From positions 9,723,001 through 9,787,000 of the forward strand of contig CM075778.1 of NCBI GenBank assembly GCA_037974665.1: a DNA stretch of 64,000 nucleotides, in the 5' to 3' direction. The DNA is from Ehretia macrophylla. Its lineage: Eukaryota; Streptophyta; Magnoliopsida; Boraginales; Ehretiaceae. Shown here piece after piece: positions 58,168 to 61,100 of the stretch. Position 1 is the stretch's first letter; each line of letters begins with the position of its first letter. The notes under the pieces were generated by a model. It was not told where the DNA came from. It saw only the letters and a list, made by a program, of their open reading frames with translations, and did no database searches. The translations under genes and the position numbers were made by a program.

Positions 58168-61100
58168 ATGGCCTCCTCATATGTTTGGCTGATATGTTTG
58201 TTCCTGCCAGTGATTGTTCATGGTCAGATTGAAGTTGAACCTTCTCACTGTCTGCACAGGCATCTCCAATCTTCACAGTCTTCATGTTCTGCAAATCAAC
58301 CTTACAGAACTGCATACCATTTTCAACCTCCCAAGAATTGGATGAACGGTAAACATTCTTCACATACTCCTATTTTTGAATTCCGTATTTGTATTATTTT
58401 CTTGAATTCCGTGCATAACTGAATTTTCGTGCACTAAACTGTCCATTTGTACTCGGACAGCTTATGCTTTTATCATTTAAATGTCTTAATGGTTTGGTTT
58501 TTTCTCTCAATCTTCCTGTGTCTTGACTTCTTATGCTGGTGAACTGAACGACTGTTGTCATTGGATGGACACATGGAACAGATCCAAATGGTGAGTTTTT
58601 CTTCTTCTTTTTTTTTTTCAAGATCTTTCTAGTCATTCATTGGTTTTTTATCAAAATTATTACCGACCCCACTTTGTGAAATAAAGACTTACTTTAATTT
58701 AATTTAATTTGATTTAATTCCATTTAATTTATCTTTCCAAATCATTGTTTCAGGACCAATGATTTACAAGGGAATATACCACTTGTTCTACCAGTACAAC
58801 CCCAGTGCTGCAGTATGGGTACAGAACATTTCATGGGGACACTCTACATCGATTGATCTTGTTAACTGGACTCCTCATCCGATAGCAATGTACCCCTCCG
58901 AGCCATACGACATCAATGGATGCTGGTCAGGTTCTGCAACAATACTCCCTGGAGATGAACCAGCCATTCTGTATACAGGAATCGACTCGAAAAACCAACA
59001 AGTCCAAAATCTGGCCCTGCCCAAAAATCTATCCGATCCATACCTTATAGAATGGTTTAAATCGCCGTATAATCCGTTAATGACGCCTACTCCAATGAAC
59101 AAGATCAACGGCACCTTATTTCGGGACCCGACCACTGCTTGGTTAGGCCATGACGAAAAATGGAGAGTTGTTGTTGGGAATGAAAAACACCGCACAGGAA
59201 CGGCTCTTCTGTATAGCAGCAGTGATTTTGTTCATTGGACAGAGGCTAATCACCCGCTGCACTCAACTGAAGACACTGGAATGTGGGAGTGTCTTGATTT
59301 TTTTCCAGTTTCTATAACTAACCAAACCGGTCTTGATACGTCTGAAACCGGTTTTGGCATTAAACATGTGCTTAAGTCTAGCATGTTTGATGTTACACAT
59401 GACTACTACACGATTGGAACGTATGATCCTGTTGAGGATATCTTTACACCAGATACAGATTTTGAGGTTGATCATTCAGGATTGAGAGTAGACTATGGAA
59501 AATTTTACGCTTCGAAAACATTTTTTGACAGCAGTACTAACAGGAGGATTTTGTGGGCTTGGGTTAATGAATCCACAGATGCAACTGCTGATATCATGAG
59601 AGGATGGTCTGGTGTTCAGGTAACATTGCCTCTCTTAATCTTAGATTCAGTCATGGCTCAATTGAGTTTTGTTAAATGTGGCAAAGGCTTTGTTTGATCA
59701 TCAATCAAATTTTTTTTATGTCTTTTGCAGGCAATTCCTCGCGAGATATGGCTTGATGAATCAGGCAAAGAATTGATTCAGTGGCCAATTGAGGAAATTG
59801 AACAGCTACGAGCAAATGAAGTTAACTTACAAAATAAACTGCTAGAAGGAAGTTCTGTATTTGAAGTGTCTGGGATCACTGCAAGCCAGGTAAAATCTGC
59901 CATGGAATAAAAGGGATCCTAGTTTAAAATATTTCTCAATTCATTAAAGGATAGTCGGTGCACGAAACTATGGTTATGTATGGGGTTTAGAGAAGCGTTG
60001 GACCCCCTTTGGGTCTACTGCAGCCTTACCTTGTGTATTTCTCTAGGGGCTATTTACATGACTCAAAATCGTGACTTTTCATGCCACATGAAGACAATTT
60101 TAGTGTTGCAGAAAGACTCCTAACTCTCACTTCACTATCAAATCAAACCAAACCAAGTTTTGTCTTATTAGGTAGGGTAAATTATATGGATATGACGACG
60201 CCACTTATTCTTGTTGAGAGCCGTTTCCTCCATTAGTTCCTCATCCCGGGTAGAGAAAACTCCAATAATATCATAATGTCTCAAGTCCATCTAAAAAATT
60301 CTGATGTGTTTACGCAGACTATGGACTACCTAATGCTCTCTCTCTTCCTGTATCTTGACTTGCAACCGACAATGTTAGGGATAAAATCTTTAACTACGCG
60401 GCGTTCTCTCAATTCACTACTTGACCAAAATAGTTATATTAATTCAAGAATTTTGAGCTAATTTCATCTTTCATCTAAACTTTTTTCTTCCCTACTAATT
60501 CTACAGGCAGATGTAAAGATTTCATTTTCAATCACAGAATTTGAGAAGGCAGAAGAGCTGGACCCAAGTTGGACTAACCCTCAAGTACTCTGTAGCCAAA
60601 AAGGTGCATCAGTGAGAAGTGGTGTAGGACCATTTGGCTTACTGGTGCTGGCCTCAAAGGACATGCAAGAATATACAGCAGTGTTCTTTAGAGTCTTCAG
60701 AAATGGAAACAAATATGTGGTGCTCATGTGCAGTGATCAAACCAAGTACTAATTATATTTTCCTTTCCCTTTCAATGATGCAACACTATTTCCTTTTACG
60801 ATTGTTTCGAACTATACTCACTTTTTTTTTTTTTTTTCTTCCACATTTTCCATTTGAAAGGTCCTCGTTACTCCTGGAATATGACAAATCCACTTATGGA
60901 GCATTTCTGAATGTTGACCCTGTCAAGGAGGAGCTCTCTCTTAGAAGTTTGGTAAGTTTGTATAATTTGAAAAGTTAACATGAATGGTTATAGCGGATTC
61001 TACACCGGTGCGAATTTAGAATTTTTTTTGAGGAAAGTTTTAATTTCACAACTAATACGAATATATTTTGTTTTGTTTTGTTTTGTTTTTTTTTTTTTTC

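Follow-up and report, generated by a model that had tools for sequence, protein, structure and literature searches.

Does a gene that sequence similarity would label a cell wall invertase encode an enzyme that splits sucrose? The question is raised by a GH32 gene in the window, the whole 64,000-nucleotide stretch of DNA analysed here (contig CM075778.1). A preliminary description of this gene had noted that Phe275 and Thr278 of its product seem to replace Asp239 and Lys242 of Arabidopsis cwINV1, the couple characteristic of invertases, and had proposed that it may encode a fructan exohydrolase (FEH) or a sucrose-inactive invertase. The gene is an intact plant GH32 gene of the cell-wall-invertase type (Table 1). 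The observation was confirmed and its interpretation partly supported: the description was mostly right, but the case is ordinary, as switches from invertase to FEH are already well known and the window gene adds one more example. What gives it some mild interest is how old the loss of the couple appears to be within lamiids.

The Asp239 and Lys242 positions

The diagnostic stretch lies at 59362-59409 on the + strand, within exon 3, whose best match among PDB sequences (phmmer) was cwINV1. It aligned without a gap to cwINV1 KHVLKISLDDTKHDYY (entries 2ac1 and 2xqr), and the 12-residue stretch with Phe275 and Thr278 paired with cwINV1 KISLDDTKHDYY, again with zero gaps. The register of the couple is fixed by entry 2qqu, the D239A mutant of cwINV1 (PMC3360783). 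Because this crystal mutant, which reads SLADTK, shows A in place of the first D, Asp239 is that first D, and Lys242 is the K preceding HDYY. Phe275 thus stands at Asp239 and Thr278 at Lys242. A one-residue shift bringing an Asp to position 239, named in the preliminary description as the alignment that would speak against it, was looked for and not found: the flanks align without indel, and Asp276 is at position 240. Nor is Asp276 a replacement for Asp239, because 110 of the 113 segments with Asp239 have D or N at position 240 as well.

These segments were collected in three protein searches (best 120 of 4016, 4160 and 3132 matches), which gave 237 different proteins. From these, 252 GH32 segments were cut, 3 proteins having no full segment; with the window gene and 2 PDB sequences the total was 255. 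The set is biased, as the second search was seeded by couple-less proteins and the third by an FEH-like protein; within it, Asp239 is present in 113 segments and absent from 142. Lys/Arg242 accompanies Asp239 in 112 of the 113, and the window gene has neither. In the first search alone (best 120 of 4016 matches, 126 segments) Asp239 was retained in 100 segments, 99 of them with Lys/Arg242, so that the deviation of the window gene is more than chance. Several plant records of about 890-1170 residues from the first and third searches (P0004, P0131-P0140 and others) hold two GH32 segments each; either annotation has merged tandem genes, or the proteins truly have two such domains.

According to a published rule, S-type enzymes carry the motif KXShDXX(R/K) and F-type enzymes lack the couple, and the path from invertase to FEH is proposed to begin with its loss (PMC9366321; the S/F rule is also given in PMC3713406 and PMC8152283). 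Loop 1 of the window protein, KSSMFDVT, departs from the S-type motif. The protein has the F-type combination instead: a functional Asp/(Arg/Lys) couple is absent, and the catalytic triad and fructose subsite are intact. All three catalytic carboxylates (Asp61, Asp188 and Glu242), intact according to the preliminary description, are indeed present in the corrected spliced protein, and its suggestion of an FEH or a sucrose-inactive invertase agrees with the rule. Because the fructose side is kept and the glucose side is lost, FEH is the best reading, and we predict with moderate confidence that the product is an F-type enzyme, a fructan exohydrolase. Similarity leads databases to label genes of this kind 'cell wall invertase', whereas the two-residue check predicts otherwise.

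How such an enzyme would work can be proposed from cwINV1, in which docking and calculation place Asp239 in contact with glucose O3 and Trp47 with fructose O6 (PMC3360783). Terminal fructose would be cut from Fru-Fru linkages by double displacement, with Asp61 as the nucleophile and Glu242 as the acid/base. The glucose of sucrose would be held poorly, since Phe275 and Thr278 cannot make the Asp239 contact and the pocket would be more hydrophobic. A tested maize enzyme without the basic residue of the motif, 6&1-FEH2, is highly active on fructan and has very little invertase activity (PMC8152283, where exceptions are also mentioned). Inhibition by sucrose is very weak where the position of chicory Ser101 is occupied by Gln, Ile, Leu or Arg (PMC8152283); this residue is Ile in the window protein (alignment by eye), so little sucrose inhibition is expected.

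It could be that the protein is still a working invertase, holding sucrose by other contacts, and that the couple rule fails in this lineage. Trp47 and Trp82 are kept, and a couple-less Elsholtzia relative, presumably our P0121, seems, by a title, to have been published as a heterologously expressed 'cell wall invertase'. The known exceptions to the rule (PMC8152283) run in the opposite direction, however, with the couple present and fructan activity. The D239A mutant is held to hydrolyse sucrose poorly because it binds this substrate less tightly, the pKa of Glu203 falls and the pocket becomes more hydrophobic (PMC3360783), and the window gene has lost both members of a couple that is otherwise nearly always kept whole. 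We therefore consider a working invertase quite improbable.

Comparison of a predicted exon-3 model (pLDDT, predicted local distance difference test score, 83.3) with PDB structures gave no separation of invertase from exohydrolase. The model is 63% identical to cwINV1 (2ac1; 2qqu) over 280 aligned residues, and the two are alike in fold, motifs and fructose subsite. Besides Phe/Thr for Asp239/Lys242, the window protein differs in a Trp47 loop longer by one residue (+1), WECL for WECP and an isoelectric point (pI) near 5. Identity to chicory fructan 1-exohydrolase IIa (1st8, 2aez) is 53%; this enzyme also lacks the couple, and shares the +1 loop and W-G-H after position 47. The chicory enzyme differs in having Phe at 47, where the window protein has Trp, and a shorter loop 1, KAGFEG-HDWY; it falls in a separate clade in both the 50-row tree and the check tree described below.

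Other residues, the Trp47 loop and the isoelectric point

The fructose-side residues Q39, W47, W82, S83, R148, D149, E203 and C204 (cwINV1 numbering) are all retained in the window protein. Among 118 sites at least 95% conserved in Asp239 segments, it keeps 108; the median kept is 117 in segments with Asp239 and 101 in the others. The ten altered sites are G48, V51 and A53 in the Trp47 loop, I70, S146 beside RDP, L238 and D239 in loop 1, G263, Y273 and G296. Three of the changes are rare with Asp239 and frequent without it: A53G (4/113 versus 57/141), G263D (1/113 versus 57/141) and G296A (4/113 versus 65/141).

Ten altered residues at normally fixed sites could also mark a decaying, functionless gene copy. 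The end branch of the window gene is 0.15, versus 0.075 in Cornus P0005, and relatives P0074 and P0039 lack the residues of the DPN mini-exon as annotated, by annotation error or real loss. However, the hand-spliced frame has 7 exons with the mini-exon kept, GT-AG sites at all introns and 574 codons without stop or frameshift, and D149 and E203 are kept in 13 of 13 lamiid-type rows, the window gene included; decay is very unlikely. The annotated start of P0032 lies after DPN, and the triad comparison for P0032, P0074 and P0039 excludes the nucleophile.

The +1 length of the Trp47 loop was found in none of the 113 segments with Asp239 (two have +2), versus 74 of 142 without it. As a second signature of couple loss it was rejected: 6 well-supported independent pairs gave a sign test median p of 0.5, which is not significant. 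Shared ancestry explains much of the split, which is an observation and not a rule. Our literature search found no paper naming both Trp-47 and fructan exohydrolase. The residue following WEC also varies: it is Leu244 (59293-59295) in the window protein and Ile or Val in Lithospermum-type relatives. With Asp239 it is Pro in 106 of 113 segments, Val in 7 and Leu in none; Leu occurs in 9 of the 141 others.

The whole product has a calculated mass of 64.9 kDa and pI of 5.1. Counted from the catalytic domain on, its pI is 4.9, the medians being 9.0 for 101 proteins with Asp239 and 5.2 for 108 without. A high pI, typical though not strict for S-type cell-wall invertases, is thus lacking here, and the acidic value fits the FEH reading. 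Ancestry confounds this split between the Asp239 classes as well, and four couple-less lamiid members (from Paulownia, Phlomoides, Elsholtzia and Salvia) have a pI of 7.9-9.4.

These values bear on another alternative, a 'defective invertase' without useful hydrolysis that binds protein or wall and raises or modulates the activity of genuine cell-wall invertases, a role proposed for Nin88 of tobacco and SldeCWIN1 of tomato. Nin88, known to us from its description in the literature, also lacks Asp239 (PMC11821009). The triad is said to be spared in every defective invertase (PMC3713406), a regulatory role in tomato ovaries has been described as possible for SldeCWIN1 (PMC7604364), and Solanaceae-type members of the group sister to the window clade are couple-less too. 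Yet Nin88 lacks Trp47 in addition (PMC11821009), and the window protein retains Trp85 at that place, so that only one of the two Nin88 changes is found. Defective invertases have been speculated to bind the wall by virtue of a high pI (PMC3713406), whereas the pI of the window protein is about 5, and its conserved fructose subsite would be needless in a purely regulatory protein. A defective invertase is, in our view, unlikely, and an FEH remains the preferred reading.

Relatives and the age of the loss

Loss of the Asp/Lys couple is not unusual. A 250-row tree, with loop columns omitted, requires at least 14 state changes at position 239, so the loss recurs across plant GH32. The phylogeny proposed as a check in the preliminary description was examined for where the window gene falls, in a careful tree of 50 hand-chosen rows, again with loop columns omitted; the named AtcwINV3, AtcwINV6, beet 6-FEH and Nin88 are outside these rows. 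It placed the gene in a couple-less group of lamiid type. Its clade contains Lithospermum erythrorhizon P0032 and P0074 together with P0009 (support 100/99). These are 70-72% identical to the window protein and carry a similar loop 1, KSSMFDVL or KSSMVDVQ; P0074 differs in a Trp47 loop of normal length and Phe at 82, and P0032 and P0074 look incompletely annotated. Among the matches listed, no relative from other lamiid families was closer than the Lithospermum type, so that on this one gene tree the source is probably a member of Boraginales.

Sister to this clade (99/95) are four Solanaceae-type, CWINV3-like proteins: P0065 of Nicotiana attenuata, P0127 of Lycium, P0129 of Anisodus, and P0086. 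They too lack the couple, with Phe at 239 and Leu at 242, and have a pI of 5.4-6.1; unlike the window protein, they have the loop 1 VFRSL and a Trp47 loop of normal length. The loss is thus not private to the window gene, because its Lithospermum and Solanaceae-type relatives share it. A Lamiales clade (Buddleja, Paulownia, Phlomoides, Elsholtzia and Salvia; 100/98) lies in the same unresolved neighbourhood. None of the 13 lamiid-type rows (10 lamiids, P0009, P0086 and the window gene) has Asp239 or Lys/Arg242, yet the 12 nearest to the window gene retain R148, D149 and E203. On this sequence evidence, the loss looks old within lamiids.

Constraining the 13 rows together gave a slightly higher likelihood (p-AU, approximately unbiased test, 0.557), which is no proof of a single clade. 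In a check tree of the catalytic domain only, with 12 further segments, lamiids among them, both the window clade (100/98) and the Solanaceae-type group sister to it (99/92) were recovered again. Bertholletia P0017, a non-lamiid protein with Asp239, fell beside the Lamiales rows with weak support (93/74). Other lamiid proteins lie elsewhere: the Rubiaceae rows (Coffea, Cinchona) in a couple-retaining clade, a second Phlomoides protein (P0138) apart and with the couple kept, and couple-less Penstemon and Oldenlandia proteins near CWINV3/CWINV6-type rows, away from the window clade.

One scenario is that a single loss before the split of Boraginales, Solanales and Lamiales founded a lamiid-wide F-type apoplastic enzyme, which was kept with and without fructan storage. 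Boraginaceae would then have co-opted it on taking up fructan storage, extending the Trp47 loop as a second adaptation. We hold this scenario to be tentative and rather doubtful, slightly more so because of the placement of Bertholletia P0017. If true, it would offer a ready comparison of why plants without fructan keep fructan exohydrolases.

The preliminary description had raised the possibility that the plant stores no fructan. This is questionable: the nearest relatives in the tree are from Boraginaceae, a family named among the fructan accumulators (PMC8151721, PMC4771763). An FEH would not be out of place if the source lies in or near that family. In a Boraginales plant, the enzyme may act in the apoplast on fructans of the plant itself or on small fructo-oligosaccharides. 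No paper on an FEH gene of Boraginaceae or Boraginales was found among the titles and abstract openings listed from the open-licence literature; in Lamiales, a gene of Orobanche cumana was named 6-FEH from similarity and a tree (PMC13164756). The prediction is that neither the window gene nor its nearest lamiid relatives should be counted among the sink enzymes that split sucrose. Should the lineage have the age that the tree suggests, they would be a natural set for testing the role of FEH in plants without fructan, spanning fructan-storing Boraginaceae as well as Solanaceae and Lamiaceae, which are outside the fructan-accumulator lists examined.

Gene structure and surroundings

The features of the gene are collected in Table 1. 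The Asp61 codon is divided between exons 1 and 2. The spliced product has the NDPNG, RDP and WEC motifs and both Pfam domains of GH32 proteins, and is probably secreted, as judged from its N-terminus. A tblastn search with this protein recovered the 6 longer exons, not the 9-base one; it matched the gene's own exons only, and no second or tandem GH32 gene was found in the 64-kb window.

Table 1. Coordinates of the GH32 gene and of its diagnostic residues in the window.
Feature	Position	Strand	Basis
GH32 cell-wall-invertase-type gene, 7 exons, 574 aa + stop	58168..61822	+	hand splicing at GT-AG sites
Exon 1, with start codon; first ~19 residues hydrophobic (by eye), probable signal peptide	58168..58348	+	
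Exon 2: 9-base mini-exon (DPN), completes nucleophile motif N-D61-P-N-G	58582..58590	+	
Exon 3: beta-propeller catalytic domain, Pfam PF00251, E 2.7e-82	58754..59619	+	
Trp85 (= cwINV1 Trp47) to Gly92, loop W-VQNIS-W-G, 1 residue longer than in cwINV1	58816..58839	+	
Asp188 of RDP, transition-state stabiliser (= Asp149)	59125..59127	+	
Glu242 of WEC, acid/base (= Glu203), then C-L-D versus usual C-P/V-D	59287..59289	+	
Hypervariable loop 1, KSSMFDVT	59374..59397	+	alignment with cwINV1
Phe275 codon (Asp239 position)	59386-59388	+	
Thr278 codon (Lys242 position)	59395-59397	+	
Exon 4	59731..59889	+	hand splicing
Exon 5: part of GH32 C-terminal domain, PF08244, E 1.6e-4 (exon 5 alone)	60507..60745	+	
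Exon 6	60861..60951	+	hand splicing
Exon 7, carries stop codon	61643..61822	+	hand splicing

A probable non-autonomous DNA transposon (56506-57813) ends about 350 bases upstream of the start codon and could affect the promoter of the gene. Its ends, GGCATCCTCAATAGAGT and ACTCCATTGAAGATAGCC, are near-inverted repeats by eye, and it contains a G-rich tandem array with a 56-59 base unit (56826-57049). On the other side of the gene, at 62392-62681, lies a foldback element with 145-base arms, 86% complementary and without spacer. It has a 48-base stretch in common (92%) with 56669-56716 of the upstream element, and looks like a miniature inverted-repeat transposable element of the same family.

Farther away, exons of a BIRD-IDD (INDETERMINATE DOMAIN) zinc-finger transcription factor gene are found at 17679-19922 (- strand). 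Remains of long terminal repeat retrotransposons lie at 29031-30056 (+), with RVT_3 reverse-transcriptase-like and integrase zinc-binding matches, and at 51643-52155 (-), with a gag match. Antisense to this gag frame, at 51634-51733 (+), is an Rfam snoR71 match of 40.6 bits against a cut-off of 40, possibly due to chance.
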